Shown here: positions 5,847-33,000 of the stretch, in pieces
Layout of the letters: each line of letters opens with the position of its first letter
Numbering within the stretch: the stretch's first letter is position 1
NCBI GenBank assembly: GCA_022539475.1
Contig: VCMS01000134.1
Location: 62,001 to 126,000 of the forward strand
Source of the DNA: Gracilaria domingensis
Lineage: Eukaryota; Rhodophyta; Florideophyceae; Gracilariales; Gracilariaceae
Length of the DNA: 64,000 nucleotides
Reading direction: 5' to 3'
Notes under the pieces: generated by a model
Database searches by the model: none
Told to the model about the DNA's origin: nothing
Seen by the model: the letters and a program-made list of their open reading frames with translations, nothing else
Program-made: the position numbers and the translations under genes

Positions 5847-6350
5847 TTTGTTAGAAAATTGATGTTTTAAAGAAAGTAAAATGTTTATTCACGCAGCCTG
5901 TTTACAAATATGTTTTATACTTTGCGCTGGGCAAAGAGTACAACATTGTTTCGAAAAGTGAGCTACTTTTGTATTGACTAGAACCATGAGTATAATAGAT
6001 ACAATGCAAATTTTGTTTTCATTCAATGGGTGAAAAATTGACTTAGAACTGAGAATTTGTGCTTCATTATTTTGGTTTAAGTGCAAGATAAGAAAATTAC
6101 TTCTGAATACTATTTGACAATATTTCACCATCATTGCTAATGATTTTGTTTACATGGTTTATCTGTTCAGCAATAGTATTTTTTCTGTACAAATTCGAGT
6201 ATCCGATGCATTAAACGAGAATGAACTATTAGTTTGGTGCGCTTTAAGGCATATACTTATATCTCTCGGAACTGTTTTGAAGAAGAAACTTTATACCGAA
6301 AGTTGCTCAATTAGTTGAGTAACTGTCAAACTACACTTTCCCGCAGCTCC

Positions 6351-7099
6351 CTTTAAGAAAACCATAAAGTTTTCAAACGTCTAGCTCTAATATCGTTCTA
6401 CAGTATCTTTGCAAAAGTGCCGGAGACCTTACAAAAGTAAACCTAGACAATTCTTTTAACATTCTCTTGCGCTTTTTTGTAATGTAGATCTTTTTCCAGC
6501 CGTTTCTCGAAAAACCACAAAGGCTCTATTTTTCAGAGTTAGAACCTGAAAAAGTTTTAAATTTCTCTCCAAAGCTTCCATACTCCCCTTAAGAACAATG
6601 CCACAGTTCCTTTGCGGAGATAGCTACAGTATCATGCAAATGCAGCAGCTATGCTGCTAAATAAAGTGTGAATGTTTGTAATAGAACATTTAGAGTTTAT
6701 TTATCTAACGTAAAAAAATCTATTTTTAAAACATAAAAAGTTCGATTCTTGTTTTCTTTTTTCCACAAAAACCACATTTTAAGCGTTTGAGCCAAGGAGC
6801 TTTGCGCCCTTTTTGTTTGAGAAGATTTCTCCTCAAAGCGCTGATTCACCTTTCCTCAAGCTATTTATCGCCTGCTTTCCAAGGGCGGCAAACTTTTAAA
6901 AGTCATGTGTCCGTTAGTCTTGTCTGCACATGCAGCCCGGGGCCGCTACGTGCTCCCCCAATATGTGTCCAGTCGAACAGCACCACCCAACACAAGGACG
7001 GTGAACCTCGCTGATCTGGACTCTAGCTATGTGTAGAGCAAGAGTTCCTCAATTCAACAGACTTTGACATTTTCGACTCGGTCCGGTCGCCGCTTCTAT
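6351..7099. other. AT-rich intergenic stretch
   Basis: Between the Harbinger element and the channel-like gene. No open frame resembles a known protein. Nothing else is evident. Confidence 0.5.
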
Positions 7100-8488
7100 T
7101 CACAGCCGGCTGGGTATAAGCACCATAACCAAGAGCAAAAACCCTCCGAACGAATATACGATGATAAAGAAAGGCCAAAGCTTATTGAAACTCAAAGTAA
7201 TATTCATCTCTGCTTCGCATTGGGGCAAATTGTTGAAATACCTGTTAAGATTTGGAATCGTCTGCTGTTCAAGCAGATCAAGCGAGGCTTCAGTCATCGG
7301 TTCAGTTAGAGTACTCCCTTTTGGAAGTACCATTGAAAGTCCACCTCTGAAGAATGGTTGCCTAACAATCACAAAGTGCCCACAATACTTTTCACGAATG
7401 GCGAATGTGATCGCCGATTCAAGCACAACCGCATACTTGCATCGATCTCTCTTAACCGCCTCGAATAATGAACCGTATGAATCGAAGTACTGCGGTGGGT
7501 TGTTCATATGGCACTTACTACCAAATTATTCAAGATCAAAAATCAAGTTCGGAAGTGTCCCACAAGGAAAAAAGAACCAGATACGTACTCAATTGCAATC
7601 GATTTTCCCCAATATCTTTCAGGAGCTCCTCCTCTTAGTATACATATCTCCGACGGGTCTACATTGCAATTGACAAGATCTGAAGCAGATTCAAATTTAG
7701 CCCTTATAGATTCTTGCACCAAGTATGCTCTGAACGAATCGGAAAAAATAAGTTGAATAGAGGTGAGAAGCGCGAAACCTTTTGAAACATGGGTGCATAA
7801 AGAACCAGTCATGGGCGGTACTTACGTCATTCTGGCGTCGTACGACAACAACAAGAAGAGAGCGGATACGGCTAGTACGATATTAAGAAACCATTGACGG
7901 CTCGAATTTCCATTTTCAACAACTCGGTCATCGGAGAGCATGAGCATCCTCATCACTTGAAAACAAACAGATGAATCTGTTAGACATGCTTGTTAATGTA
8001 AGAAAACTGCAGACGCCTTACTTGTACTTTGAAAAGCCATTCTCAGCCGAAAAGAAAGTTTACTTTTCATGAGATAGTACCCATATCGTTGGAGCCTAGA
8101 ATAAGTATTCGGCGGCGGTTCATACGGAACAGGAACGGCGAACTGTTTGTCAGGAATCTTCAGAAACGAACACATGATGAACTTATAGGAACAGTCCAGC
8201 AATGGCTATCCAAGCTTTGATGTCAAATGTCTGTATGAAAAACCAAGTTTTACCCGCGATTGTGGAATCAGAAACATGGACAAATGCAACGTATTGATCG
8301 AAGGCAAACGGTGGTAGAAAATCAACTTTCCGAAAGCGACTGGCAGTCATAAACCAACCGCCTATGCCGATGTCACACTGACAAGCTGGAGAGTCGATGA
8401 TTTGCCCAGTGGACATGTTGGTGCATTTGTGCATCTTGGAAATGAAGGCATGGAAGTCAGCCGGGTTTGTGTGGTTAAAGAGACGCAT
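7100..8488 (-). CDS. Ionotropic glutamate receptor-like / periplasmic-binding-domain channel, 3 short introns, frame break near 8190
   Basis: Minus-strand exons 8488-8022, 7955-7826, 7729-7585 and 7489-7100 are separated by introns of 66, 96 and 89 nt (GTAAGG..CAAG, GTAAGT..TCAG, GTATCT..GCAG) whose phases (1, 2, 0) all fit. Landmarks are CDIGIGGWFMTASRFRKVDF (end of ligand domain S1), TWFFIQTFDIKAWIAIAGLF (first membrane helix), SSRQWFLNIVLAVSALFLLLSY (third helix), then LPKGSTL, an S2 lobe, and a last helix (WPFFIIVYSFGGFLLLVMVL). These are the order and parts of iGluR-type ligand-gated channels. A typical pore loop is not obvious. The frame shifts by one base between 8202 and 8183. Upstream, the frame 8619-8500 (VRIWTAPPEG) may be the true N-terminus in another frame or exon. 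It is either a decaying gene or carries sequence errors. Confidence 0.65.
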
Positions 8489-8759
8489 GCTTGAACATGT
8501 AATACGGAAGGTGGAGGAATACAGTTGTAACGAAACTGATGAGTTGTAAGGTCGTGATCGGCTATCCTCCCCTCAGGAGGAGCAGTCCAGATTCGTACCT
8601 CTTCTTTTATAGCACGCATGGAAGGCGGCTTGAAGCGCTAGGCGCTAATGAAGGTGATGCAAGGCCTCACGCGTAACTACAAGAGACACCAATCTAGCTT
8701 ATAGGTCACACTTCTAGCTTATAGGTCAGACTATTGTGATACACTCGCGCCGCTTTTGG

Positions 8760-9900
8760 CCGAAGATGTCCTCATCGAGGTCGTCGCCAGAAAAGAAGTT
8801 ATTGTTTCGCGGCAGTTCTTCAACGCAGTGCCCGGAAGCCAAACGGCGTCGTCTTCTGAATCGCCAATAAACTGAACGAGATAGTAGACGCGGCGGTTAG
8901 GCATCTTGCGCGCAAGAATAGACGCAACCTCCTGCTAAATCAAACCGTCGTTGTCGATCAAAATGTCCAACGGACCCTTGTTAAAGTTAGAAAAACGACG
9001 GAACTTTGCGACGTAAAACACGTTGTGAACACGACGCATGGTCAGAGGGAGCTCAAAGCGATACCTCACAGGTCCAAGCTGCTTCTGTACCCGAAAGTGT
9101 CCAATATACCGCGGCTGCCAGTTTTTTGGCAAATAAGAACGACGCGTCAAACAAAGGTTATCCGCACGTAAAAGAACTAGTTACCCTTCTTCGAAGGGAA
9201 CGTCGCGTCGCGATCTGTCAGCATAAGACTTATGCGCAGAGATAGCGTTCGCAAGGTGTTCGCGCGCAAGTCCAACCATAGCGTTTCTTCTTTCTACTTA
9301 ATCGATTGCAGTATGCGAGCGTTCGGAGCAGTAGTCTAGGGTACACGTGATAGAAGTGTGAGAGATGTATCCGAGACAGAATTCAAAAGGAGAGAGTCTG
9401 GTGCTGGAGTGTCAAATAGATTTGTATTCGAACTCCAAGGTAAACCGAACAGTGTCCCAGCAAAGGAGAGTTTCTTGGATTGATGAGCGGAGCACGGAGG
9501 AGAGAGTTCGAATGAGATTCTCAGACTGCCCCTCAGTCTGGGGGTGATCGGGAGTCGAGATATTGCAGTAGATGTTCAGTAGTGGCATAAGCGTCTTCCA
9601 AAATCGGGAACGAACCTTGGGGTCTCGATCAGAGATTAGTGTGTGCACGACGCCATGCCTGGCGAAGAGGTGAGTGTCGAACAGTCGCGCAGTATCCGCC
9701 GTGGTGGTGGGCTTCGTTTTCGGAAGAAAAATAGCTTGCTTGGAAAGAGTGTTGACCATGATCAAGATGGCGTCGAAGCCATGTTCTGACTGCGGTAATT
9801 CCGTCAAGAATGTAGAGCAAGCGCAATTTCGCGTTTGTCACGTGCTCGGTCTCATAACACCTCGGCTTTCCGAGTTGCCTCTACAGCAATGTTATGAATT
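8760..9900 (-). mobile_element. Ty3/gypsy chromovirus remnant (integrase core, C-terminus, chromodomain)
   Basis: On the minus strand the segment near 9807-9412 reads as an integrase core (PDHPQTEGQSE and neighbours), followed at 9150-8935 by the integrase tail ending in RVHNVFYVAKFRR. The last part, 8940-8800, looks like a chromodomain. It is an old broken copy: several breaks, no LTRs seen next to it, and reverse transcriptase missing. Confidence 0.8.
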
Positions 9901-10440
9901 AAGATGGCATTCTCACACCATATGGCATGGTGGCACCCAATGGGGTTGATGGAATGGTAACCGGTTGTGGCAGTGGATCGCGTTTAGGCGTGTAGGGATT
10001 GGCTCTATTACAGAGAAAATTGGATTGGTTTTTAGAATTAGTGGCCGCCAAGGCCGGTCTGCACAAGTGCAACACGTGTGCGGCTCTGCCGTATTTCGCA
10101 CTACTTAGTTTAATTATTTAGTTTAATATGTGAAAACCGTAGCATTCTGTAGAGCAACGCTTTCCGCGTGCTAATCAAGACAAAGAAACTCATATAGTCA
10201 GGGATGAGTATACTAGGATGCACTCCCAATGTATGAGTGAGACCCAATTTTGAAGGATACTTTTGAGTGGCTTTCCCAGATTTTTCCCTGTAATCAAGGT
10301 TGTCATTGCTGGCTAATACCGCTAGGTGGAGGCGTGTATAATATGACCGTGTGTGCATAATTTGGGAAAATAGGTGGTGCACCTGAGGCGCCTGACACAG
10401 GATTAGGCACGTGTATGGACCCCTGCGGGTGTGCACCACG
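9901..10440. other. Non-coding stretch, possible LTR-type end
   Basis: No gene seen. Short self-complementary motifs occur (for example GGCCGCCAAGGCC near 10040). The segment 10372-10437, with CACGTGTATGGACC, resembles 60122-60186 at the start of another hairpin-rich element. The two may be the same kind of element end. Confidence 0.4.
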
Positions 10441-11971
10441 TGTAAATTGTTCGTTTAGACCTGCTTACATGCGCTCGACTTCAACGTGTCGAGATTCAGT
10501 GTTACGATCCTACCAAACTGCTCAGAGTGCAGTAGGTTCCAGTGTAGCACTTACTCCGGCTGAAAGACCTCTTTTGGCCTCTGTAACTTAAGTTGGAGCT
10601 CTTTCAGAGAGAGTCGTTACCCGGCTTCCTGCTGAGCTGCGTAGCGATCGATCTACCGATTCCAGAAGCGAAAATGGCGGGCAGTTGAAAGTTACGTATA
10701 GCGGCTTTCGGGGTTGAGGTGTTGATGCAAGTTGTATTGGTTCATTCGGTTGTTGTATTTCTCTATCTAAGTTCTACGAATTCCTCGTGCACATTACATA
10801 TAGATGCAAAGCAGTACAGTCACGGGAAGATGCATACCGATCATTGCGGACTCTCGTCAACGCATATATGTGGACAACAATGACCATCTCCGCCATAACC
10901 TAAACACTTGTTGCATTGATGGATTATGTCGGTGACCTCCGTGTAGAGCATAGTTGTTCGTATTTCACATGCAGTGTCCCATATCTTCCACACACCGTCG
11001 CGAGCACCTTTGTAAAGTGAACCCGAGCACTCCCCAAGTGAACTCTTTGTCGAGTAGCGCTCCTTTGAGTGGACTCAGCACGAGTGAGGCTCTAGTAACA
11101 ACCGCCTACGTGGATTATCACTCTCACGAGTATAACGGCATCTGGTTACGGTGGTCCTACCCTCCCGGTACCCTTGAGGAACATCTGTCGTTGATGTCAG
11201 GACTTGCGAGTCATACCGAGGAGGTATCAGACTAGATTACGAAGTGATCCGACTCTGTATAGAGTTTCGCCGTGGTCACGGAACGCCGTGCATCCCTGTT
11301 GGAGGATCTCTCCCCGCTCCGAGCACAGTGCCGAGGAGGCTCTACCCGTCGCGTGGGGGTGTTGGTTGTTTGTTGCTGTTGTGAGTTGCTTTCCCTCTCG
11401 GGATTACACTGGTCATTGGTCGGGTCGCATCGTTGCCGATACCACCCCATCTCCGGAGTTTCTCATCGTTTCCCCACGATTGTACTTGGCACCTCTGTAG
11501 GTATAGCCAGTTGCCACTTCGGTCTTACACCCGAGCTACAGTGGTACAGAGGGCTCTGTCACTGGTCTACCATCTCGCAAGAGAGCGGACCTTCGGACAG
11601 TCTGGTGGGTTTTCACTCTTCAGAGTTTGCCGCACAGGACGCACGGCCAATCAGATCATGTTGCACTCCGTGCAACCGGTCAACCGGTGTGGCAATGCAA
11701 CTGCCCACGTGGCGAACTGCCGCATAAATTGCGTTGAAGTGCACAATTCCCGTGGTCGGGTGAATCTCCAGCAAGGATAGGAAGAGCCTGAAGAGGGTAA
11801 CCACCGAGAACGGTCAACTTCGTAAATACGAGTATATCGTGTATCGTTGTTGATACCGTTTACCGGTTTGCTGGTTGATGTTCATGAACGGATACCTGTT
11901 GAACTCAGAAACTCGAGGAGTATTAATGGGACTCCGATATTCGAAAACTGGGCGTATCCAGGTGGAGCAAT
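10441..11971. mobile_element. Hairpin-rich LTR-type element fragment, split by a younger insertion
   Basis: This stretch has the same style as the element at 11972-19704: many short self-complementary motifs (CTCGAC...GTCGAG near 10480, CCGTGGTCACGG near 11270) and no long meaningful frame. The young element has inserted at its right edge, after GCAAT. Its continuation across the insertion is at 19710-20070. It is an old incomplete copy; the exact left boundary is not visible. Confidence 0.5.
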
Positions 11972-12822
11972 TGTGGTGCAAACCCCGAGAACGGGAGAAA
12001 GACACGAAAGGTGTTCGGAGCCTTCCCCTCAATAGGGTAGCAACAGCAATAGAGCCCCTCACGGGTAGGTGCACTAGCCGGGCGTAAACCGGGACCTACC
12101 GTCACGATGTACGGGTGAGGGTATGAGATGGCCGAGAAGTCGGATGGAGATACACGTGAGTGTGTGTAATCCTCAGATGAGGTCTAATAATCCACGGAAG
12201 TGGCGGAGACAACGACTACGTGTCGGAGGTTCACAAACCACGAAAGGGGGGGCGACAAGCCCAAAAAGGGGAAACGGGAACCCAAGTGAATGGGGAAAAC
12301 CAAAGAGGAAACCCGGCGACGCGGCGAACGAGAGTAGGGCCACGAGAGACACGAGCGAACAAGACGAAGCCCTATACAGGGGTGAGTATCCACGACAGTG
12401 TGTAATAATGAACGGTAAATAACAACGACGGTGTCGGCGATGCTCCTGGTGAACAGGGTGGTTAAACTAACCGTGCACGACGCGGCCAACCCTCGAAGAG
12501 GTGTGGGAACACGCGAAGGCGGTGCAGCTTAGAGCCAAGAACTAAGGTTCAACCCTGGTTGGGGAGCTTTACTTGGCGGCGAGGGCCGAAGGCCGAGCCA
12601 CTATATAGTGTAGTAATCCCCCTAAAATATGTCCAAAACTATCAAAAGAAATATCTAAATTACCAGCAATGCTGTGCCACCCGTCCCTTGCAACCGTGCT
12701 ACACGTGTCTGACAAGCCAGCAATGCTGTGCCAACCTCAGCACTGCCTTCTACCTTCCCTGCGCAGCAGGCCCAAGAGTTCCTCGCAAAGCGAGCATATA
12801 CCGCAAAATGCGTTGCACTACA
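11972..12822 (-). repeat. LTR (851 bp), 3' LTR relative to coding strand
   Basis: Same length as, and apparently the same sequence as, 18854-19704. The terminal inverted bases TGTRGTGCAA are the usual TG...CA LTR edges. It contains many short stem-loops such as CCCG-AGAA-CGGG and CCTC-AGAT-GAGG. Confidence 0.88.
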
Positions 12823-15011
12823 TATCCCCCTCCTTAGGTGCGAACACCACGTCGCGATGACGGTTGAAGCACCGGACAAGCCAACAAAGTTGGGTAACAT
12901 CACCGCAGGAGCGGTATATGCGAGCCATCGCCAGTTTTCCAGGTTGCGCTCCGGTTCTCCGAGTCCTTCTTCCTGCTTCCAAGCCTCCTCCGGAGCTGCT
13001 ATTGCCACCCGATGACGGGCTTCGAGCCTCCCGACATTGTGGCAGAATTGCTTACAGTACGCCCAGAATGGCGTTCTCCGCGTTTGAACGACGTTCTTGC
13101 GTTGAGCGGAACACCACGCGAACATGCGGCACGATATCCCCAATGGGTGCTCCAAACAACGTCAATGACGGATACTCCTTGTGCGACACGACCAACACAG
13201 CCCTAATACGATAGGTGCAACAAGCCCTCCATGACCCGGAAACGGGGTTTTCACTTCCTCACCACGTCACTGACGGTTCAAGAAAACCACCCGCAAACAT
13301 GCGGTCTGACCTCCCAAACTGGGTCTCGTATCACGTCAATGACGGTACAGCACACGCGCGAAGCGGCTAGCAAACTCCCAGAACACTGGTGACGAAATGC
13401 CATAACCTTCCCGAAAACGGGGCTTTAAACTCCATACCACGTCGTTGACGGACACTTAAACAAGCATGCAGTACTGCGGTAGGCTCTTGGGCATCGACGC
13501 ACGCGAAATCGCGGTTCCCTCTTACCCTTCCAGGGTCTTCCAACCGATAATATCGGGAATTTGACAAAGTTCCAGAAATCTGGCTGAAAACTGACATGTA
13601 CAAGCCCGTAAACGGGTCCGGAGTTCACAGCCCGTCAATGACGGAGTGCCATATCCACCCGCAAGACTGCGGCAGACTCAGTGAGTCAAATACGCACGCT
13701 TCGGCGGACTTCTTTCCCTTTCCAGGGCTTCATGAACCGAGATATCGGGGTTTCCGGTCAATCCCATATTGGGGCGTTTCAATCGTTGCCGCAACGCGGA
13801 AAGAAACCATCGGGAGATGTGATCGCTCTGCGCGCTGAAAGCGTGGAAGCCAACCTCAAGGAGGAAGTATCCCGTTGAAGAAACGGAGCTCATACCGTCG
13901 AGATACAGACGTGTTTTCAATAAATATATATAACGTCAACAACCCAAATCTTCGGCTTCCTCAATCCGTCTTCGACGTGACCAGATCCCAACTGGGAGTG
14001 AACATACGCAACACAGCGCCGGCATGCCGTGCAACGAAACCCAGTGGTGGGAAAGAGACAGCGTCATAGACGAAACGAAAATCCGTCCTTCGGAATATAT
14101 TAAACCGGTAGTCCGTGAACTTCTCCAACCCGAAAACGGTGAGTACAGCCTGAAGCAGTGTAGGATCCTTATTAAAGGCAAACAGCAGACGTTGTAGAAA
14201 GCCCGTGAAAACGGAGATAACCAAACCAGCAAGGCTGAGAACAACAGTAACACCATGAAAATGGGTCATATAACAAATAGAAACTTTCGAACAAGAAGTG
14301 TATCCTCCGGTATCAGACCGTGTAGAAACGCACGAAAGCCAGTCGGAAAGTGTTCCAAAGCCCGTGTAAACGGTGAAATGAATTACCAACCGCAGTGCGG
14401 GAAAGAATGAAGCTCCCGAGAAATCGGTCGACCAAAAATTATCCTCGACTACGAGAGTGACGAGCATTATGCAAGGCCGTGAAAACCGATGACAATCGTG
14501 GTTCTTACGCAATCTGCGTGACGTTCTAGAATATCCACGGCACAGAGTGGACGGCGAGTGCCGTAAAACGGAGAAAACCCGTTGTTGACGAGAACGAACC
14601 CTGGTAAACAGGAATTTAACGCCAACCAGCCATGCTGGGCAGAAACTCGAAACGGTATTAAACCCGGTAGATACACGTGATATACACGGAAACAGTACCT
14701 CCTTCTGAAAGGGAAAAACCATTCTTGTGATCCACAAAGATGGAAGTGAACCAGCAAGCTGGATAAAAAACCTTTCAGGGTTATAACTTTGAAAATCGAA
14801 CATGTGCGGCTCGACACGACACAAGTCGGACTTCAACCGCAAAATGCGAGTACAAAATTCTTCTCTTCACTTCTGAATATCCATTCCTCTTCTAGAGTCT
14901 CTGAATTCCTCTTCTGAGTGTCCATTCCTCTTCTGAGTGAACTTCTTCATCTTCTCCTCTTCCTGAGGGCAACGTGTCTTCTTTTAAATTTTCTCTACCC
15001 AGAGTGCACCT
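12823..15011. repeat. Array of mini-hairpins in the non-coding part of the LTR element
   Basis: Tiny perfect stems with 1-6-nt loops follow each other roughly every 25 nt. In 13235-13799 alone I count about twenty: CCCG-GAAA-CGGG (13235), CCGC-6-GCGG (13291), CCCA-AAC-TGGG (13313), CCCG-AAAA-CGGG (13410), CGCG-AAAT-CGCG (13502), CCGAT-AAT-ATCGG (13544), CCCG-TAAA-CGGG (13605), GACTCA-G-TGAGTC (13675), CCGA-GATA-TCGG (13737), CCGC-AAC-GCGG (13789). The stem sequences differ, so this is not a tandem repeat. The pattern continues to about 14850 and recurs in the LTRs and coding region. Confidence 0.8.
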
Positions 15012-17624
15012 TCACGACGTAAATGTCGGTACAGTACTCCACTGGAGGTCGTCGTACGTCCTCGAAGGAGGTTCCTTATGCGTACCCTCCGTCATGACGG
15101 GCTCACCAACGTCTCGAACTCGAGAAACTTTCAGTGTTGACGGGAGTCCCAAGCAGGGAGGCGGATTGCCTACCACGGCGCGTGCCGATTCACGTGACTC
15201 CGGACGACGGTTCGTGGCTGCGGCACTGCCGGTCGACTGAACTGACGCACTGCGTGATGCAGGGCTCGTATCACGAGATTCGTGGCGCGCACGGACTCCT
15301 GCAACGGCAGTGTGTGTTATCCCTAAATCAGGGTTGTAATCCGTTTCTCGAAATAGTGGGGCACCGTCATGACTTGGTGAACCGTCGTGACGTGCGTACG
15401 ACAACTTCCCCACGGACGGGCCTGGCTCTACTTCCTCCAAACCCGATCCGGGGTGCTTACTTCTATCTTCATCGAGAGTCTCTTCTTCCTGCTCTGCAGT
15501 GTGGTGGATACAGGCATCAGCGGCGACCTTCTTACTTTGCGCCTGCATACGCAGTGTTGGGCGGTCGTCAGCGACGATATGCAACTGCGTGGCGACCGGA
15601 ATACTCCGTACAGCAGTATCCCGCGTAACCGTAGCCGTGCTCTGCCGAGAAATCGGGTGATCAACTTCAACTTCCGGCGTTGCCGAGGGAACATCTCGAA
15701 CGAGAGTGTACTCCGCGTCCTGCGTCTGAGCGACGATAGGCGCGGGTTCGTGCGACGATTCCTCAAGCGGGTGAGCATTACCAGTATCCTGGGACATCTT
15801 CGAGTCCGTAGATTGCGTTACTTGTCCCTCTGAAGGGTTGCGATCCCTCTTAGAAGGTTGTGCGTCCTCCGCAGAGTCCTGCGCGTCAGCGGCCAACTTC
15901 GGCGCGTTCTTTCCGACTTCAGCACGCTGCAGCAAATGTTCCTGCCCACTGACAGTGGTGTACTTAGCAATCACGTCCTTGACGGTGTCTTGCGGCACTT
16001 CTGCCTCCACTTCTTCTCTCCGTAAATCACGGGATATCTGCGACGGTAGCAACACCGGTGATTCACTTTCCGCGACAATGCGTGCGTGTCCCTCCCCCTC
16101 CTTAGACGGAGCGTCATGGGTAGCTGTAGAAACACCCAAATGACGGGGATAAACGCCGCACAGATGCGTGAGAGTAGAAAAGCCGTTCTGGCAAACATCC
16201 GAAAGCTTCGGGAGCATTGAGAAACCCAACGATTGGGAACGCATACGCATACCCTGCTTTACAGGTTGAATGTCTACTCGTACAGGAACTGTAGTTTCCA
16301 CCGTAAGAACGGGATCATCAACGACTTCATCGTTCTTAGAGCAAGCGTTCTCGTCACGAGCATGTGACGATGTCCGCTTGACAGCGTGTTGCTTCTCGTT
16401 GAGCCGTTCGCAAGCGCGATTCATAGCACGCTGTACAGCGGTGGGCATTCCTGTGAGCCATAACTTCCAACATCTTTCATAATCCGTAGAGTACGGTACA
16501 CTATCCAGCATTGGTTGAGCATCATCTCTCTTTGAAGAGGACATTGTTTGAGTCTCTGTCGCGCCAGACCGACGGTAGTCGAGGCAAGCGAACCAAGATT
16601 CATTCGAAAGCTTGGCAAACACAACCATTGATATGGGCAAACACTCCGAATCGTTCGGTCTCCCTTTCGAACGTTTCGAAATATCTTCCACCTCCTTAGA
16701 GTGTAGTACACCGATCGCATCGGCAGCACATATCTCAGAAGAGGCAACTGCCATAGGATGAGGTAAAACAGATCCAATAACTTGGTTGTGAGCCAGATAC
16801 TGGTGCTTACGTCCAAGATTGGAAACCAGCACCGTAAACGGTTTGTCCGGTTCAACATGAACTAGAACATCCGCGAATGCGAGACCACGCCTGTTAGACA
16901 GTGACGGTACCTGCTGAACAAATCGAACTCCGTGATGACGGGAACTGACTCGAACCCAAGCTTGGGATTGTGGCGCTATGCAAAGCGATCCGTGAACACG
17001 AAGCTTGTTAGATTCCCGGGAGGCCGGTAGATATTCCTGTGCCACAGGTAGAAGGACTTTCTTTTTCGACGCACGCTTCAGCGGACGACGCACGATTGGG
17101 ACAGAAGAACCATCGGCCAAATCCACACGCTTCGACCGGGGTCGAATGGATTCGACAACTTCGTCGCAAAAGTTACAACCCAAAATGATGGGGGCCGGCA
17201 ATGACCGACATACAATAAAGTCGAGCTTCAGCACGAGCGGTCCTAAGCGAACGACCATGTCAACCTTATCAACTGTTGACAACAGGGTGTCACTCGCATC
17301 AGCGACTTCCGGAAGCACGCAATTGCGGATTCGATCACGCAATGACTGCGGTAAAAGAGATTCTACGACGAAGTTCGGACCAGCACCTGTATCCAAAACA
17401 GTGAGATAACGCACCATAAAATGGGTAGAGTGGCCAATGTCAGCGAACACTTTGAAGTGTCGCTTTGACATGACCATGACTCGATCCGGGAACCGGTTAT
17501 GACGAACCCGTTGCCACGGTCGACGCAAAACACCAAAGTGTTCAGAGTCCACGTCTAAGACGGCCTCTTTCCTTGTGAGGATTTTGACCTGGGAGCGAGG
17601 CGAAGAAGCCTCGGGCGTCGGCAA
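15012..17624 (-). CDS. LTR-element polyprotein part: aspartic protease plus long tail of unknown function
   Basis: An 870-residue frame. Near its start (about residues 78-155) lie VLDTGAGPNFV and, 70 residues on, IILGCNF, the paired motifs of retroviral-type pepsin-like proteases. The remaining 700 residues are polar, rich in Ser, Glu, Thr, Asp and Arg, and match nothing I recognise. In particular I find no reverse transcriptase, RNase H or integrase motif. It lies 41 nt after the gag-like frame in a different phase and begins at a non-ATG codon, so it is probably made together with gag by one of the read-through modes known in these families. Confidence 0.75.
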   Translation of the reverse strand: MPTPEASSPRSQVKILTRKEAVLDVDSEHFGVLRRPWQRVRHNRFPDRVMVMSKRHFKVFADIGHSTHFMVRYLTVLDTGAGPNFVVESLLPQSLRDRIRNCVLPEVADASDTLLSTVDKVDMVVRLGPLVLKLDFIVCRSLPAPIILGCNFCDEVVESIRPRSKRVDLADGSSVPIVRRPLKRASKKKVLLPVAQEYLPASRESNKLRVHGSLCIAPQSQAWVRVSSRHHGVRFVQQVPSLSNRRGLAFADVLVHVEPDKPFTVLVSNLGRKHQYLAHNQVIGSVLPHPMAVASSEICAADAIGVLHSKEVEDISKRSKGRPNDSECLPISMVVFAKLSNESWFACLDYRRSGATETQTMSSSKRDDAQPMLDSVPYSTDYERCWKLWLTGMPTAVQRAMNRACERLNEKQHAVKRTSSHARDENACSKNDEVVDDPVLTVETTVPVRVDIQPVKQGMRMRSQSLGFSMLPKLSDVCQNGFSTLTHLCGVYPRHLGVSTATHDAPSKEGEGHARIVAESESPVLLPSQISRDLRREEVEAEVPQDTVKDVIAKYTTVSGQEHLLQRAEVGKNAPKLAADAQDSAEDAQPSKRDRNPSEGQVTQSTDSKMSQDTGNAHPLEESSHEPAPIVAQTQDAEYTLVRDVPSATPEVEVDHPISRQSTATVTRDTAVRSIPVATQLHIVADDRPTLRMQAQSKKVAADACIHHTAEQEEETLDEDRSKHPGSGLEEVEPGPSVGKLSYARHDGSPSHDGAPLFRETDYNPDLGITHTAVAGVRARHESRDTSPASRSASVQSTGSAAATNRRPESRESARAVVGNPPPCLGLPSTLKVSRVRDVGEPVMTEGTHKEPPSRTYDDLQWSTVPTFTS

Positions 17625-17665
17625 CCTCGATATAGAGGACGCCTCTCCACATGTGGAGACTCCCT

Positions 17666-18487
17666 TTACCAGTTTTTCTGGGACTCAACCGCCACGGGCG
17701 GAGCCACAGAATCCTGAACCACTAGCAGTGAGGTGCTAGCAGCATAGTCTATACGCGAAGGATGCGGTTCGACAGCCTGCGGAGCAGTGTTTGACAACGC
17801 GAATTGCGGTTGAACAGCCGGAATGCTCCGTGAGAAATCTGCTATCGAGCGAAGATACGACGTCATCGGAACGGATTCAGCCTCCTCTGGAGTGAGAGAC
17901 TCATAATTATCAGCAACAGAGGACCATTCTCTCAAAGGGAGGTGGCATTCCGAGTCTATGTGACCGTGTCTGTAGCACGAATGGCAGATAGTGCCAGATC
18001 CTGAGCCATTAAAAGCCTGACGACCTTCACCAAAACTCTCCGCTTGGCGTGTATAGCTCCGTACAAGACCAACATGTTGGATAACTTCACTCCTATGAGG
18101 AGGTCGCAACCCGTGAGAACGGAAAGAATCTGCAGAATGCAGTCGATCTTCCACGTTGGTGGTGAATAAAGCATCTGTTTCAGACCAGAAATCTCCTGTT
18201 AAGGAACGAGCATAACTCCAAAAATCGGAGGAAGAATCTGAAGACCAACCAGACGAGCTTGAACCAGTTGAACTGTGAGAAGTTTGAGTTAAACCCGATG
18301 ATTCGGATAGATTCGACTCGGAATCAGAACGACTCTCACATACATCCTTCACAGAAGTCCGTCCCAACCTGCATTGCAGGGCTTCGACTTCCTCTGCGAG
18401 GGCATCCGACGGTTCACGTAGGACTGAGTTTTGCCTTCTGGCAGTTCGACCCATGTCGAAACGACTTCCACACGGAGCCAAGAACAC
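17666..18487 (-). CDS. gag-like protein with CCHC zinc knuckle
   Basis: 273 residues. A Ser-rich middle (residues 55-90) precedes a CCHC knuckle, CHSCYRHGHIDSEC (168-181), typical of nucleocapsid RNA binding. It lies just inside the 5' LTR of the minus-oriented element, where gag is expected. No capsid fold could be judged by eye. Confidence 0.75.
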   Translation of the reverse strand: MFLAPCGSRFDMGRTARRQNSVLREPSDALAEEVEALQCRLGRTSVKDVCESRSDSESNLSESSGLTQTSHSSTGSSSSGWSSDSSSDFWSYARSLTGDFWSETDALFTTNVEDRLHSADSFRSHGLRPPHRSEVIQHVGLVRSYTRQAESFGEGRQAFNGSGSGTICHSCYRHGHIDSECHLPLREWSSVADNYESLTPEEAESVPMTSYLRSIADFSRSIPAVQPQFALSNTAPQAVEPHPSRIDYAASTSLLVVQDSVAPPVAVESQKNW

Positions 18488-18853
18488 CAGAAAACTGTAG
18501 ATTGTGCCTCAAACGAGAGTGTAACACACAAAGGTGGGTAGAAACGACCGTATCGATGGGAACCACAAACTACGATAGTAGGCGATTCTACCAGAGTAGC
18601 TGGTACACAGTTCTAGAGTAGCAACACCGTACCGACGGGAATCACACACGACGGAAATAGGGTAAGCAACCAGTTCAGAACTGAGCGAGACCAACAACCC
18701 AAACGGGGAAAGACGAAGCCAATCACGACAGTAGTCGGCCACGACTTCCACGAGGAAAAGATCTGCGTTCTCCACGACGTCGAGCCGGCAAACCGGAATG
18801 TGCACAAAACCAGCTTGCTGGAATCAACACGACTTCTAAGTCGGGAGACCAAA

Positions 18854-19704
18854 TGTGGTGCAAACCCCGAGAACGGGAGAAAGACACGAAAGGTGTTCGG
18901 AGCCTTCCCCTCAATAGGGTAGCAACAGCAATAGAGCCCCTCACGGGTAGGTGCACTAGCCGGGCGTAAACCGGGACCTACCGTCACGATGTACGGGTGA
19001 GGGTATGAGATGGCCGAGAAGTCGGATGGAGATACACGTGAGTGTGTGTAATCCTCAGATGAGGTCTAATAATCCACGGAAGTGGCGGAGACAACGACTA
19101 CGTGTCGGAGGTTCACAAACCACGAAAGGGGGGGCGACAAGCCCAAAAAGGGGAAACGGGAACCCAAGTGAATGGGGAAAACCAAAGAGGAAACCCGGCG
19201 ACGCGGCGAACGAGAGTAGGGCCACGAGAGACACGAGCGAACAAGACGAAGCCCTATACAGGGGTGAGTATCCACGACAGTGTGTAATAATGAACGGTAA
19301 ATAACAACGACGGTGTCGGCGATGCTCCTGGTGAACAGGGTGGTTAAACTAACCGTGCACGACGCGGCCAACCCTCGAAGAGGTGTGGGAACACGCGAAG
19401 GCGGTGCAGCTTAGAGCCAAGAACTAAGGTTCAACCCTGGTTGGGGAGCTTTACTTGGCGGCGAGGGCCGAAGGCCGAGCCACTATATAGTGTAGTAATC
19501 CCCCTAAAATATGTCCAAAACTATCAAAAGAAATATCTAAATTACCAGCAATGCTGTGCCACCCGTCCCTTGCAACCGTGCTACACGTGTCTGACAAGCC
19601 AGCAATGCTGTGCCAACCTCAGCACTGCCTTCTACCTTCCCTGCGCAGCAGGCCCAAGAGTTCCTCGCAAAGCGAGCATATACCGCAAAATGCGTTGCAC
19701 TACA
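18854..19704 (-). repeat. LTR (851 bp), 5' LTR relative to coding strand
   Basis: Pairs with 11972-12822. Followed directly by the target duplication GCAAT at 19705. Confidence 0.88.
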
Positions 19705-20072
19705 GCAATAGTACTACCGTCACGTTGGTCGCTCGCGAAGCTCGTGTGGATGAAATTGGCAAGAGCCGTTGCCGTAGCCTCCACCAGAGGAGTGTCGAAG
19801 CAAACCTCTTAAGGTGTTCTCATCGTCTGAGTATCTCAATGGTTAGTCCCGAAATGGATGTCTACCAGCAGGAGTATGTTGTCGACCGAATTGTGCGGCA
19901 TGTCGCAGGTCCCGATAGGAGGTTTCGTTACAAAATTCGCTGGTACGGATAGCCTCCAGAAGAGGACACGTACGAACCAATTGAGCATTTACCTCGCTCA
20001 AAGATAATCGCCAATCACCGGCGTTCGCGTACAGCTCTACTTATATATCTGGACCGTGCCCAGGTGGGGTAA
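19705..20072 (+). mobile_element. Chromovirus remnant: integrase tail with chromodomain
   Basis: A plus-strand reading at about 19855-20040 gives a chromodomain-like segment (EYVVDRIV ... PPEEDTYEPIEHLPRSKI), the typical end of Ty3/gypsy chromoviral integrases. It is a short broken fossil, part of the older DNA into which the 11972-19704 element inserted. Confidence 0.65.
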
Positions 20073-20276
20073 CTCGCGACCGAGCATATTTGTCCTCGAC
20101 GTTGTCTACCTCACGGAAAGGTCTCGTGGTAGAGAAGTATTACTCGTGGGTTCGAGAGAATTTTGGGGATGAAGGAGAAGCAAATCGCAAATTATTGGAG
20201 AAACCAAATTAACGGTAATGAAGTAACCGAAGTTCATGACGTATGAAGCAGCGTTGAACGATCTGCAAAAATTTTC

Positions 20277-20560
20277 TCCGTGACCCTCCCGTCACCCGCT
20301 GAAGTGCAAAGTTTTTGCCAGTGGTGGCCTCCTGTCACCCACTTTCAGCGTTTTTAAATAAATTTGAAATCCAAAAATGATTTCAAGTTCTATGCAATGC
20401 GAAAGTATGCAAAGTTCGAAAGGCACGTCAGATGTGCTTCTGCAGCACATCTGACGTGCCTTTCGAACGTCGACGTCTGCAAGTGTCTGCGTTGCAGCCT
20501 GCGGCTGCCAGCCTGCGAGGCTGAGGCTGGAAGGCTTGAGCCTGCAACCCAACCTACGAC
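20277..20560. repeat. hAT-end-like sequence with perfect hairpin
   Basis: Contains CAAAGTTTTTG (20306) followed by GTCACCC, in the same order as the inverted right end of the hAT element near 27621. It also has three AGCCTGC copies (about 20490-20550) that mirror three GCAGGCT copies near 27380-27450. A perfect hairpin with 24-bp arms and a 5-nt loop lies at 20415-20467. This may be the left end of a very large hAT element or the end of a separate related copy. The outermost bases do not match well. Confidence 0.45.
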
Positions 20561-21895
20561 TTGCGTCAAAATTATTGGCCAATCCAGCCCAATATCAGGC
20601 TTGTGCCGCACAACATTCCAGGGCCATATGGCCTCAACAAGCAGCTTAAGTCGGCACTGCCGATTCGGCAAATTACGTCTCTTTCCCAGCAGCCGTCATT
20701 GTTTCCAACGAAACTGACATACACATCTGAGCATCCTCGTACCGATCTCAATGATTCGCAAAACAAGGTCACGTCTCCTGCGTACTACGAGCAAACTTGT
20801 TCCGCCGAACAGTCCGTTATACCTTCCAGGCTTTGTAACAAATAACAAATGCAGGTGCGAACGCCGAGCCTTTTCTTCATTGTGTCATGAACCAAATGGT
20901 TGTCTGTATGGTTTGATAATCAGCGACGTACAGATCGAAAATGAGTCACGAACGTTAGACCGTAGCAAAGCCGAAACCAATACATGTACTAAACACAAGC
21001 CAACAACGGACATTGCACCTCAACGCAGAGCACAAACGATTTGTGTGCCGCAAAAAAGCAGGACAAGGCTTTTGTGCAAAGCACGCAACTTTATTCCGCT
21101 GGACAGTCCCACTTTTTTTACCGGGTTCAACAGAGAATAAGAAGTAGACGTCGCTGTTGGTTTTGGACTCATGACCACATATTGAACAATATCTTCGTCG
21201 CTCAAATGCTGGCAAACTGTCTTCGCAAAATGCACTCGCCGAATGGGTGGCCCAGATCTTCAACTTCGCGCAGAAACCCAGTCAAACAACCATTTCGAGA
21301 CTGCTCAAGAACAGAATTACATTCTCCGGGTCCAAAACGCTAGAAACTGCGAAGAGTGCTACCGTTCCCAGACAACCGGCGCTAGGGGATGCACTTTTCT
21401 CGTGGGTAGTGGATCAGTATTCGACAGCTGGCGCTATGCGTGCCTCTTTGCGGAAGCGCGAGCAGCGGCACAAATATAGAACGGGGGCGGCGAAGAGAGC
21501 TTCGCTGCGCAGACCGGCTGCGCTGCGCAGCTGAAGAAGTCATTGCACCTGAACAAACTGGGCACGATACAGGACCACTGGCTTGGGCTAGCAAACAGAC
21601 ACGACAGGAGCGCAAAAGAGGAGCGTCATGAAAAGCGGCACAAAGAGCGGCGCGGACGCGAACGGTGGAAGTTCACACGAAGGCACCGGCGGCGTTGCGA
21701 GCACTTCGCGCAGCACGCCGTTTCGATGGGATAACCTTCGTTTGGTCGATGGTGTTGCGACATCCCGGCATCGTAGCGTATCTCATCGCCTCCGAGCATA
21801 CCTTCGTGAGGTCCGCATCACCGTGCATATCCGTCTCCGGTCGTCTTTGCTTGCTGCCGCATCGTTCGATCTTTCTTTGCAACATCGAAACACCG
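20561..21895. other. Intergenic / 5' region of DXR
   Basis: No frame here resembles a known protein. GC content rises after about 21450. The DXR frame is open from 21665, with ATGs at 21749 and 21896. Confidence 0.5.
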
Positions 21896-30080: not shown

Positions 30081-33000
30081 AGTACAAATTCTGGTATGTA
30101 TAAGCAGGGTTGAGAGCTGACTACCATTGATTTGTAGTCAGAGCCCCTCTCTTTACTTATGTAGGCGTGCGTCTGGTTTGGCGGAGGAGCTAGGTGCAGC
30201 ACTGTCCGTCACAAGAGATCGCATACTTCAGCCTACGTGTTCGCATATGCAGCGGATCACTCTTCTAAATAAATTATCTAATAACGTAAATGCACAGATT
30301 CAGATCCAGTTGCCTCCTGGTAGATATGTCCATGAGGACACATCATCCTAGCACTTCATGTTTCATCATTTCCACTGCCATTATGTCTCGTCTCCATCAC
30401 ATATTCCAACTCCCCCTCTTGTTTGTTAATTTTAGAAACTTGAGCAAACACCCAAAAAGATCAAGTGCTTGTTGAAAACCTTCTTTGGCAGTGGTTTTGT
30501 CATGACATCCGCCGCCATCTTTTTCGTAGACAAATGTTCAATTGTTACCACCTTCGATTCAATCATATCTAACACAAAGTTTCCACGAATAGCCACATGC
30601 TTAGCTCCTCGTATGCCAGATGACTCCCACACAATGGCCCTCTGATTGTCTTGATACAGTATGGTCGGGGATTCTTGTTTGCATTTTAAGTCCCGTAGAA
30701 CATCGCGCATCCATAGAATAAATTTGCATGCCTCACTGGCAGAGACGTACTCCACCTCGGCGGTCGAGAGGGCAACGACAGACTGCTTGATAGACCTCCA
30801 TGCTACAGTAGTCTTTCCAAGCGTGATCACAAATCCACTTCTTGATCGCCGAGTATCGACATCACTACCCCAGTCCGCGTCAGCAAAAGCTCGTAAATCT
30901 CCTGGATCGGTGCACAACTTCAATCCATACCCAACTGTGCCGCAAAAGTAACGCAGGATGCGTTTTACAGCTTTCAAGTCACACTCTCGAGGTGCTGAGC
31001 TTCGTCTAGAAAGCAGTGTGACGGCTATATTGAGATCAGGGCGAGTACGGGTAGCGAGAAAGAGAAGACATCCAACTATTTCCTGATACAACTTCTGATC
31101 AACAAGCTCATGATTGCATTTCTGCCGAACACATAAATCTGTCATGGGCGTCGAGACGGGTTTCGAGTGTTCCATGCCAAAGCGCCTGAGTATCTCCTGA
31201 ACGTAATCCCCTTGATGAAGAAACGCTCCGTCCTTCTTACTAGCAAAAGTGACTCCTAGAAATTTGGAGAGGTGTCCCATGTCCTTTGCGTCTAGATGAT
31301 CAGATATCTCCTGCTTCACGATGTTCATATGCTTGCTATTGGGTGAAATTATAATAATGTCATCCACATATATCATCAGCCACACATCATTTCGGACATA
31401 AAGGCATTCATCTGAAAGCAAAGGGCGAAAGTTTAAACTTTCCATGACCTCTCTCCACTTCTTATACCATTGACGAGGCGCTTACCTCAAGCCATAGAGA
31501 CTCTTCCGTAGCTCGAGAACTTCATTCGGCTGACAGAGTTTCAATCCAGAAGGGGGCACAACATGAATCGTCTCATCAATATCGCCCTGCAGAAAGGCGG
31601 TTTTAATATCCATTTGATGAATATTATACCCCCTCTGGACTGCCAGCGCTAGCACAAGTCGCACAGTGTTGAAGTCCACAACCGGTGCGTACGTTCTCTC
31701 TACTAACCCTTGCATGAATCCTCGAACGACTAGTCGGGCCTTATACCGCACTGTGTCTCCTACGGCATTTGTCTTACGAAGGAAGACCATCCTCGACCCA
31801 ATTGGATTCATATCAGATGTGCGCCGAACTGTTTCCCAAGTCGCATGTGCTCGTAGCGATGCAAGCTCATCATCGATTGCAGAGCGCTAGCAATCAGAGT
31901 CAGCCATTTTTAAGGCCTCCTCTACAGTCTCTGGTGTGTGTAGAGAAATACATACTGCAGTCATGGCCCTCGTTGGATCGAAACGCTCTGTTGCTTTTCG
32001 CTGACGAGAAGGATATCTCGCAATAGGTTGCTCCGGTACTTCATTAACGACTGGAGGCTCCGCCGCGTAGCCTTCTCCCGTCGTTCCATACGTGGAGGGT
32101 TCTGTCGGATGGTGCGTAGTCCATTCAACTCCATCTTCATCCACTTCAGTAGTCCAATGTCCACTTCCTGTCAGATCCTTAACTTCTGAATCCTCGGTGG
32201 TCTCTGCTTCAAATTCTTCCTGTAAACTTCCAATTTCTACTTCTCTCGTGGCTGAGTCATCACCAGAATCGCCCACTGTTCTGGTACCAAACCAATCAAA
32301 TCCCGGGAAGGACTCCTCATCGACTACCACGTCACGGGCTAGAACAACAGTCTCTGAATCTTTCAGCCAGACTTTGTATTGACTATTATCGAAGCATCCG
32401 ATAATAATCCCTTCCCTGCTCTTGGCATCAATCTTCTGTCGAATCTGTTTAGGTATGTGAACCCACGCATGGCTTCCAAAGATGCGAAGATGGTCAATTC
32501 TGGGCTTACGTTTGGTGAACAATTCAAAACCAGTCACTTTACCTACCGTGGGGCAGAAGAAACGGTTTCGAATGTCAGCTGCGTGGGTCACCGCTTCCGC
32601 CCAAAATTGCCTCGGAAGTCCAGCGTGTAACAACAAAGGTCGAGCGCACTCAACAATTGTCCGGTTCGTGCGTTCAGCTACACCGTTCTCGTTAGGAGAG
32701 TACGAGGAAGATGGTTTCCAATCTATTCTCTTCTCACGCAGATAGCCATTCAAGGCTACATACTCTCCACCGCGGTCGCTCTTTAGCTGCTGGATTTTAC
32801 AGTTACTTCGACGCTCTGCCCATGCTTCGAATGCCTTGAACTCAGTAGCAACGTCACTATTATGTTTAATGGGCTTGATCACAACGTATCCAGAGTAGTC
32901 GTCCTTAAATGATACGAAGAACTTTGATCCACCCAGTGACTGCACAGACATTATCTCGCAAACATCGCTGTGTATTACTTCACAAACATTTGAAGCACGA

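Follow-up and report, generated by a model that had tools for sequence, protein, structure and literature searches.

Genome-scale ordered RNA structure (GORS), as summarized for hepatitis C virus (HCV) and coronaviruses, consists of hundreds of unbranched stem-loops in coding sequence, whose positions turn over faster than the proteins and whose paired sites vary less; it is detected by an excess of whole-fold energy, given as 7-9% in HCV and 15% in SARS-CoV-2 (PMC7642675). Dispersed packaging signals, as outlined from the work of Twarock and Stockley on MS2, picornaviruses, and the pregenome of hepatitis B virus, are varied stem-loops with a shared recognition feature that are found genome-wide (PMC6281560). 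In retroelements, the retroviral psi and the 5′ packaging and dimerization structures of Ty1 are described as cis-acting RNA hairpins linked to Gag (PMC5454406). The 64,000-nucleotide stretch of contig VCMS01000134.1 of the red alga Gracilaria domingensis that was analyzed here (positions 62,001 to 126,000 of the forward strand, referred to as the window) carries, at 11972-19704, a young long terminal repeat (LTR) retrotransposon whose sense strand is the minus strand. It is a member of a Ty3/Gypsy lineage in which mini-hairpins of nearly fixed size, maintained by selection, form an array along the whole element, over the LTRs and over noncoding and coding sequence. The array is marked by an excess of hairpins, a narrow geometry, a dependence on pairing, and constraint between subfamilies.

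As far as the accounts cited above go, this array belongs with neither GORS nor the dispersed packaging signals. It resembles GORS in its hundreds of unbranched stem-loops, the turnover of their positions, and the lower variation at paired sites among the lineage copies, but differs in that the hairpins are uniformly 12-13 nt long, nearly restricted to Watson-Crick pairs, subject to base preferences, and located in a retrotransposon. It shares with the dispersed packaging signals a recognition feature common to variable stem-loops; here, however, the candidate feature is the stem geometry and the outer pairs, with no loop motif standing out. The psi and Ty1 structures are local and lie at the 5′ end, whereas the array covers the whole element. 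To our knowledge, a fixed geometry combined with base preferences is foreign to GORS. Non-autonomous Ty3/Gypsy derivatives of the LARD and TR-GAG types retain the LTRs, primer-binding site (PBS), and polypurine tract (PPT), have lost reverse transcriptase (RT) and integrase, and contain filler sequence; the window element likewise retains the former and lacks the latter, but in its case the noncoding filler consists of a hairpin array. In the open-licence literature, covered largely at the level of abstracts, no LTR family with such a design was recognized. The fixed geometry leads us to regard the design as new; under a broad view of large-scale RNA structure, it would be called a variant.

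Hairpins were counted as non-overlapping perfect stem-loops with arms of at least 4 bp and loops of 2-7 nt and compared with dinucleotide shuffles. An earlier note on this DNA had claimed about 20 perfect short stem-loops in 13235-13799; the count is 21, with 8.7 ± 2.4 expected and a maximum of 15 in 200 shuffles. The density also exceeds that of the shuffles in the surrounding 12823-14850 (66 hairpins versus 30.8 ± 4.5, maximum of 40 in 60 shuffles), in the LTR (26 versus 12.0 at 11971-12822), and in 14851-18460 (125 versus 60.2). A density no higher than in shuffled controls, by which the note would have been refuted, is thus not what is seen. Overall, short hairpins in the LTRs, coding, and noncoding sequence of the window element are roughly twice as numerous as expected by chance. 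The note was right in extending the pattern to both LTRs and the coding region; what it took for the leader, 12823-14850, is 3′ noncoding sequence, because the gag and protease open reading frames (ORFs), PBS, and PPT are on the minus strand and the strand that it read is the antisense one. Accordingly, its GAAA and AAAA loops exist on that strand but are U-rich loops in the transcript. Of its 4- to 6-bp stems, none of at least 6 bp is present in 12823-14850 (2.5 expected), whereas the coding part has 9 (5.0 expected). Its description of the element as young agrees with the identity of the two 851-bp LTRs, whose single differing alignment column is the edge base of the target duplication.

Among the 64 1-kb bins of the window, 12 (11-21 kb and 60-62 kb) show z scores of 3.8 to 6.7, and the remaining 52 range from -1.9 to 2.8. 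Some excess is seen in the left flank of the element (30 versus 15.7 at 11000-11970), with no homology found to explain it, and in the right flank (31 versus 20.8 at 19705-21000), which contains the terminal part of an older Gypsy insertion. The second hairpin-rich stretch, 60001-62000, contains short matches (60820-60894) to the lineage copies L068 and L071 near their PBSs and is probably, judging by these, a fragment of the same lineage. The distant Gypsy remnant at 8500-10900, with an integrase remnant at 9160-9810, shows no clear excess (26 versus 18.6, z of 1.7). A search of the window with Rfam at gathering thresholds gave no matches. Chance or composition as the cause is ruled out by the dinucleotide shuffles and the synonymous-codon shuffles described below, and repeat expansion by the differences among stem sequences.

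The excess is confined to a narrow range of shapes. In the window element, stems of at least 4 bp are enriched 3.4-fold for loops of 3 nt, 3.9-fold for loops of 4 nt, and 1.4- to 1.7-fold for loops of 2, 5, and 6 nt, with no enrichment for loops of 7 nt or more. The same ratios are near 1.0 in 37 kb of background and near 0.5 for 3- to 4-nt loops in the Copia-type element at 30432-34151, which has 6 hairpins with 3-nt loops and 6 with 4-nt loops versus 12 and 11, about half the numbers in shuffles. In six long copies of the lineage, the dominant classes are a 4-bp stem with a 4-nt loop (4+4; 2.6- to 4.3-fold) and a 5-bp stem with a 3-nt loop (5+3; 3.9- to 8.2-fold), that is, hairpins of 12-13 nt; L069 additionally uses 5-nt loops (3.1-fold at 4 bp). 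Pairing one step past the stem is found in 0.12-0.18 of the 4-nt-loop stems versus about 0.25 by chance and is raised to 0.34-0.56 past the 3-nt-loop stems, which yields the 5+3 class. The outer pairs are mostly 5′C..G3′, with C in the 5′ arm at position -4 in 59-71% of hairpins with 4-nt loops and at position -3 in 49-70%. The best 4+4 pattern, an A-T closing pair followed by three G-C pairs, is enriched 9.8-fold and the all-G-C pattern only 3.9-fold, which argues against selection for stability alone. No loop motif stood out in the base-preference analysis; the recognition feature common to the variable stem-loops consists of the size classes, the outer CC..GG, and the inner A-T preference.

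The scarcity of long gaps bears on the possibility that the array is a silencing shield, under which small-RNA targeting or sense-antisense pairing would find few long unstructured stretches: gaps of more than 60 nt number 15 in the window element versus 41.7 in shuffles, and pairing restricted to Watson-Crick pairs would be of consequence if folding is required of both strands. Longer stems would serve such a shield better, yet 12823-14850 has no stems of at least 6 bp and the 4-nt-loop stems are rarely extended. A shield also leaves the base preferences unexplained, and free RNA does not favor the hairpins; we regard it as improbable.

Hairpin centers are spaced with a median of about 25 nt, and spacings of 19-22 nt exceed the numbers from random placement in five of six copies: the window element (53 of 192 versus 26.3), L071 (47 of 188 versus 22.0), L068 (58 of 266 versus 38.6), and L070 (32 of 131 versus 16.7), with a less clear excess in L072 (32 of 161 versus 21.6, 2.5 standard deviations). 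A peak at 20-21 nt with a second rise at 40-44 nt in the window element, L071, and L068, together with near strand symmetry, is what would be expected of a double-stranded DNA code, in which a protein would bind inverted repeats separated by about two turns of the helix in integrated or extrachromosomal DNA. A protein that reads linear DNA, however, recognizes sequence and would not demand complementarity of otherwise free inner bases, cruciforms require stems longer than 4 bp, and the stem constraint of the internal regions is not seen between recent copies (see below), all of which makes this explanation very improbable.

That pairing itself is maintained is evident from CC-N8-GG sites. Of the 443 such sites in eight copies, 199 have both inner positions paired, compared to 30.6 ± 5.4 when the 3′ halves are permuted; in the background, 5 of 94 are inner-paired versus 6.6 expected. 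The three short RT pieces have few such sites, and L073 and L075 alone show no clear excess. Since the inner bases vary freely and yet must match, the sites represent folded hairpins rather than a fixed binding sequence, and a sequence-specific palindrome for a DNA-binding dimer is ruled out on the same grounds.

The array is limited neither to a single region nor to a single element. In the G. domingensis genome (77.9 Mb in 680 contigs, in which copies are numbered as L0xx and contigs are C-numbered), an excess of hairpins was found in all nine lineage copies examined: the window element, L068 and L069, L070, L071, and L072, and L073 to L075, which are three RT-core pieces. Six copies of 5.0-9.2 kb have 132-267 hairpins each, and the share of bases in hairpins in four copies is 0.34-0.41. 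At the borders of near-identical copies, all 10 inner sides show z scores of 8.1-10.0, and the 12 outer flanks of 1,500 bp range from -2.7 to 3.7, with 8 at or below 1.3. The outer scores are 3.7 and 2.5 in L008 and L009 (both the window's own flanks), -0.7 in L010, -0.9 in L012, 2.8 in L013, -2.7 in L014, -1.6 in L015, 1.4 in L016, -0.5 in L017, and -0.3 in L018; L011, with 1.3 and -0.1, is an LTR without an internal region on either side, judging by hairpin density. RT genes are very numerous in this genome (1,776 first-look candidates for RVT_1, of which 150 were scored). A red-algal origin is also indicated by phycobilisome-family hits, 10 of 12 of which lie on contig C680, and by the DXP reductoisomerase ORF of the window.

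The long open frames of L068 (gag of 749 amino acids and pol of 1,859) and L069 (pol of 1,906) are traversed by the array. When codons were shuffled with amino acids and codon usage kept fixed, the pol frames had 163 hairpins versus 54.0 in L068 (z of 17.9) and 113 versus 54.0 in L069 (z of 8.9), the L068 gag frame had 61 versus 22.1, and the two ORFs of the window element had 70 versus 25.2 (the ORF at 15012..17624) and 22 versus 6.6. The longer ORF of the Copia-type element (15 versus 15.6) and a DUF659 ORF (24 versus 21.4) did not differ from their synonymous shuffles. Because the excess survives this control, the coding hairpins are made of synonymous choices.

Stems change more slowly than the rest of the element when subfamilies are compared. 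In the well-aligned parts of the window element and L071 (74% identical), differences are found at 97 of 1,263 stem positions, 142 of 548 loop positions, and 677 of 3,475 linker positions (rates of 0.077, 0.259, and 0.195, respectively), and the corresponding rates for L053 and L058 are 0.071, 0.40, and 0.256. Pooled over the internal regions between subfamilies, the rates are 0.122 in stems, 0.297 in loops, and 0.221 in linkers, and the contrast is less marked among LTR copies (0.100, 0.159, and 0.144); these pooled counts, internal and LTR, reuse related sequences and are non-independent. No stem constraint is seen between L053 and its recent relatives L055 or L056 (92-93% identity; 0.074, 0.101, and 0.078 in stems, loops, and linkers versus L055), as expected if the constraint acts while elements are active. 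In the pol genes of L068 and L069 (66% nucleotide identity), only 21 of 90 mapped hairpins have the same center, versus 5.2 ± 1.9 at shifted positions, which indicates that most hairpins have turned over with the density held. Fourfold-degenerate sites between these two have changed in 73 of 128 cases in stems, 26 of 33 in loops, and 183 of 264 in linkers. A weak point is the comparison of L072 with L069, which in one direction shows almost no stem effect at fourfold sites (0.671, 0.667, and 0.717). In the close copies L068 and L072, 8 of 592 stem sites and 41 of 1,441 linker sites have changed, with equal rates at fourfold sites (0.033, 0.028, and 0.034). The earlier note's preference for selection on structure over repeat expansion is thus supported by the differing stem sequences, the CC-N8-GG pairing, the synonymous choices, and the slow stems.

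These comparisons also bear on a mutational by-product, i.e., an RT that folds back and switches templates, perfecting near-palindromes that have no function. Perfect Watson-Crick arms, 3- to 4-nt loops, restriction to one retroelement lineage, and a family-specific geometry would all follow from it, as would the few recent pairs with three arm bases altered (3 of 15 altered hairpins in L055 versus L056). However, arm copying predicts many double changes that keep the pairing, and there are only 4 in 600 between the window element and L071 and 2 in 520 in the reverse direction. Among 285 hairpins of L068 and L072, 42 are altered, 36 at one arm base, 6 at two, and none at three, and the stems are conserved between active lineages. 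We consider such an origin unlikely.

Relatives outside this genome were sought among bacterial genome contigs, where 41 pattern matches led to five loci, and in two scans of viral contigs, in which no relative was found. The bacterial contigs with such loci are evidently in part eukaryotic contamination; the Gypsy-type elements L079 to L081, on contigs binned with metagenome-assembled genomes of Robiginitomaculum, Moorena, and Cohaesibacter, are probably cases of this kind. L079, binned with Robiginitomaculum, is 50-51% identical to L068 and L069 and 54% to P0001 and carries the array (88 hairpins versus 33.9, z of 11.1), including its two ORFs under synonymous shuffles (54 versus 23.2 and 35 versus 14.5). 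Its hairpins are of the 5+3 class (6.1-fold) without the CC..GG preference, which suggests two dialects, 4+4 with outer CC..GG and 5+3 without it. The counts versus shuffles are 55 versus 49.2 in L081, 63 versus 53.6 in L082, and 24 versus 25.9 in L083. In the tree, the seven included copies from G. domingensis group together (99/99), L080 joins P0007 (93/98), and the placement of L079 rests on 18% of the columns.

As for function, the array would most plausibly, although tentatively, be a cis code for binding by the Gag nucleocapsid, for packaging or condensation. Its hairpins would be many weak, additive sites for the nucleocapsid on the genomic RNA (or on the cDNA inside the particle), through which the element's own nucleic acid would be selected and condensed; single sites would be replaceable, and positions could turn over while the density is held. 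We infer a role in cis from the non-autonomous window element, which is without RT, RNase H, integrase, and most of gag and keeps the full density in its noncoding sequence. Less surely, the array appears to be read by an element-encoded factor, since the geometry and base preferences are family-specific and the array is missing from one Copia element and from one distant Gypsy remnant in this genome. By extension, and with similar caution, some Ty3/Gypsy elements may write a fixed-geometry hairpin code over their protein code, with family dialects, an additive element-encoded reader, and non-autonomous relatives that ride along. If so, the whole retroelement would be one distributed cis-signal, with codon choice bent to the hairpins; the recognition by Gag of its own RNA and the upkeep of weak additive sites would become testable on hundreds of natural sites in at least two dialects; and the narrow geometry would let simple counts find such lineages in other genomes.

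Several observations weigh against the nucleocapsid reading. The evidence for the compensatory changes that the earlier note proposed to test for is weak: pairing is kept in 18 of 34 double changes in the pooled coding comparisons (P = 0.014 versus one-third) and in 7 of 17 in the noncoding ones (P = 0.33). Column pairs with a pairing-keeping double change number 5 in the LTRs and 10 in the internal regions, and those with only other double changes number 6 and 18. Mid-stem G·U pairs are enriched only 1.26- and 1.33-fold, close to A·C mismatches (1.07- and 1.21-fold) and far below perfect stems (3.2- and 4.7-fold); in 4+4 hairpins with three G-C pairs, the figures are 0.87-fold for G·U and 1.44-fold for A·C, and stem changes to G·U and to A·C are about equally frequent (35 versus 33 in the noncoding pool and 21 versus 14 in the coding pool). 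This pattern is no less compatible with DNA than with RNA. In free RNA folds of 300 nt, the mean pair probability of the mini-hairpins is 0.29-0.50, versus 0.32 for background hairpins. The gag ORF of L070 has only a 1.44-fold excess (28 versus 19.4), L069 is without a spacing peak (22 of 167 versus 19.5), and the excess in L080, a relative at 38-52% identity, is at most weak (95 versus 70.6, z of 2.9; 58 versus 47.0 in its long ORF).

The hairpins may act as RNA or as DNA, and the alternatives to the nucleocapsid code stand, in falling order, as single-stranded DNA, the mutational by-product, the silencing shield, and the double-stranded DNA code. In the first of these, the hairpins would work in one or both strands of the reverse-transcription cDNA as a guide, shield, or pacing device. 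The nearly exclusive Watson-Crick pairing, with little or no tolerance of G·U, favors it, as does the near strand symmetry: the folding excess at a span of 16 nt is similar on both strands, 34% in sense and 35% in antisense for L068 pol and 36% and 29% for L069. The usual distance between the polymerase and RNase H sites of reverse transcriptases is close to the 20- to 21-nt spacing. Yet the loops are slightly asymmetric between strands, being G-poor relative to C (pooled P = 0.012) and T-rich relative to A (P = 0.030) in sense. The pooled, non-independent change counts lean to G·U over A·C in sense (267 versus 141 internal, 165 versus 139 in LTRs), with the same lean in L070 and L071, and the outer C-G and inner A-T preferences would be needless for mere folding. 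On balance, action as single-stranded DNA is a less probable explanation, although one with a real share of the likelihood.

The folding excess of the array depends on scale. At a span of 16 nt, the lineage excess is 22-51% in sense and 28-69% in antisense, with 3% on both strands for Copia and 11% and 14% for the background. At a span of 150 nt (folds in 150-nt windows, smaller than those of the literature, with 20 shuffles), the excess in five lineage stretches is 4, -2, 5, 5, and 9% in sense and 7, -2, 2, 5, and 8% in antisense, overlapping with Copia (4% in sense and 11% in antisense; background, 0 and 6%). One lineage stretch reaches the range reported for HCV, and so does the Copia control. 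Ordinary genome-scale RNA structure is a possible explanation, although the folding energies overlap with those of Copia and the pair probabilities are like those of the background.

The features of the window element are collected in the table. On the minus strand, they follow the order of 5′ LTR, PBS, gag-like ORF, ORF with the protease motif, about 2 kb of noncoding sequence, PPT, and 3′ LTR.

Features of the window element and its surroundings, with three example hairpins (positions in the window)
Feature	Position	Strand	Remarks
Target-site duplication GCAAT, left	11967..11971		Read in sequence
3′ LTR, 851 bp, hairpin-dense	11972..12822	-	Identical to 18854-19704
PPT, sense CTAAGGAGGGGGATA, abuts 3′ LTR	12823..12837	-	Judged by eye
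3′ noncoding hairpin array	12838..14850	-	Loops of 3 and 4 nt enriched 3.4- and 4.5-fold (shuffle comparison)
Example 4+4 hairpin CCCGAAAACGGG	13410..13421		
Example 4+4 hairpin CCAGAAATCTGG	13572..13583		
Example 4+4 hairpin CCGAGATATCGG	13737..13748		
ORF with DTGAGP protease motif	15012..17624	-	First ~320 residues match Ty3/Gypsy pol
Shortened gag-like ORF, one CCHC zinc knuckle (CHSCYRHGHIDSEC)	17666..18487	-	ORF and alignment to L068 gag
PBS, 18 nt	18834..18851	-	Complementary throughout to tRNA tail (with CCA)
5′ LTR, 851 bp, TG..CA ends	18854..19704	-	LTR alignment; ends read in sequence
Target-site duplication GCAAT, right	19705..19709		Read in sequence
Chromodomain end of older Gypsy element, beside insertion site	19860..20069	+	tblastn with L068 pol 1790-1859

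The TG..CA ends of the LTRs, the 5-bp duplication, the PBS, and the PPT (the last by eye) are Ty3/Gypsy hallmarks, and the pol protein of L068 has the Pfam domain order RVT_1, RT_RNaseH, Integrase_H2C2, rve, and Chromo (the last at residues 1795-1840), shared by L069 except for Chromo; by these features, the lineage is classified as chromovirus-like Ty3/Gypsy LTR retrotransposons. Of these genes, only the knuckle region of gag and the protease region remain in the window element. Its gag-like ORF aligns to residues 568-749 of the 749-residue L068 frame, the missing N-terminal part presumably holding the capsid domain, and neither frame has a Pfam gag match. The protease assignment is based on the DTGAGP motif and on homology to pol N termini, with no Pfam protease match; among 8,000 candidates scored, this part had 7 matches, which are pol proteins with RT and, in most cases, RNase H and integrase, and the rest of the ORF has no Pfam match. 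Pfam and homology searches found no RT, RNase H, or integrase in the element, which, with only gag residues 568-749 matched, is why it is taken as non-autonomous.

In L070 (C69:13000-21500), an LTR seems to be succeeded by another internal region that has a separate PBS; positions 5889-8188 of this copy, after a hairpin-rich pol/3′ region, contain the PBS and a 730-residue gag ORF without a CCHC knuckle. Of the four gag ORFs compared, this knuckle-less one is the one with little hairpin excess (L071 gag was covered only in 500-bp bins). The PBS of L068 has the same 18 bases as that of the window element, and those of L070 and L071 have one mismatch each. The complementary tail with CCA is present at three of seven genome matches of the tRNA-tail pattern, and three more are one base off. 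One of the latter, L077, was called by ARAGORN, only with introns allowed, as an intron-containing tRNA-Gln(TTG), and ARAGORN found no tRNA at the other two of the three places fetched. In L078 (C50:161850-162060), a tRNA 3′ tail with CCA lies between inverted copies of a short sequence resembling window positions 11604-11636 and appears, by eye, to be a copy of a tRNA end within a repeat. Elsewhere in the window, the right flank contains, by eye, an inverted repeat (20414-20468) whose perfect 25-bp arms are separated by 5 nt, an ORF for DXP reductoisomerase is present, and an ORF at 40770-42122 encodes a PF13843 (DDE_Tnp_1_7) domain, which we take to be of the piggyBac type.

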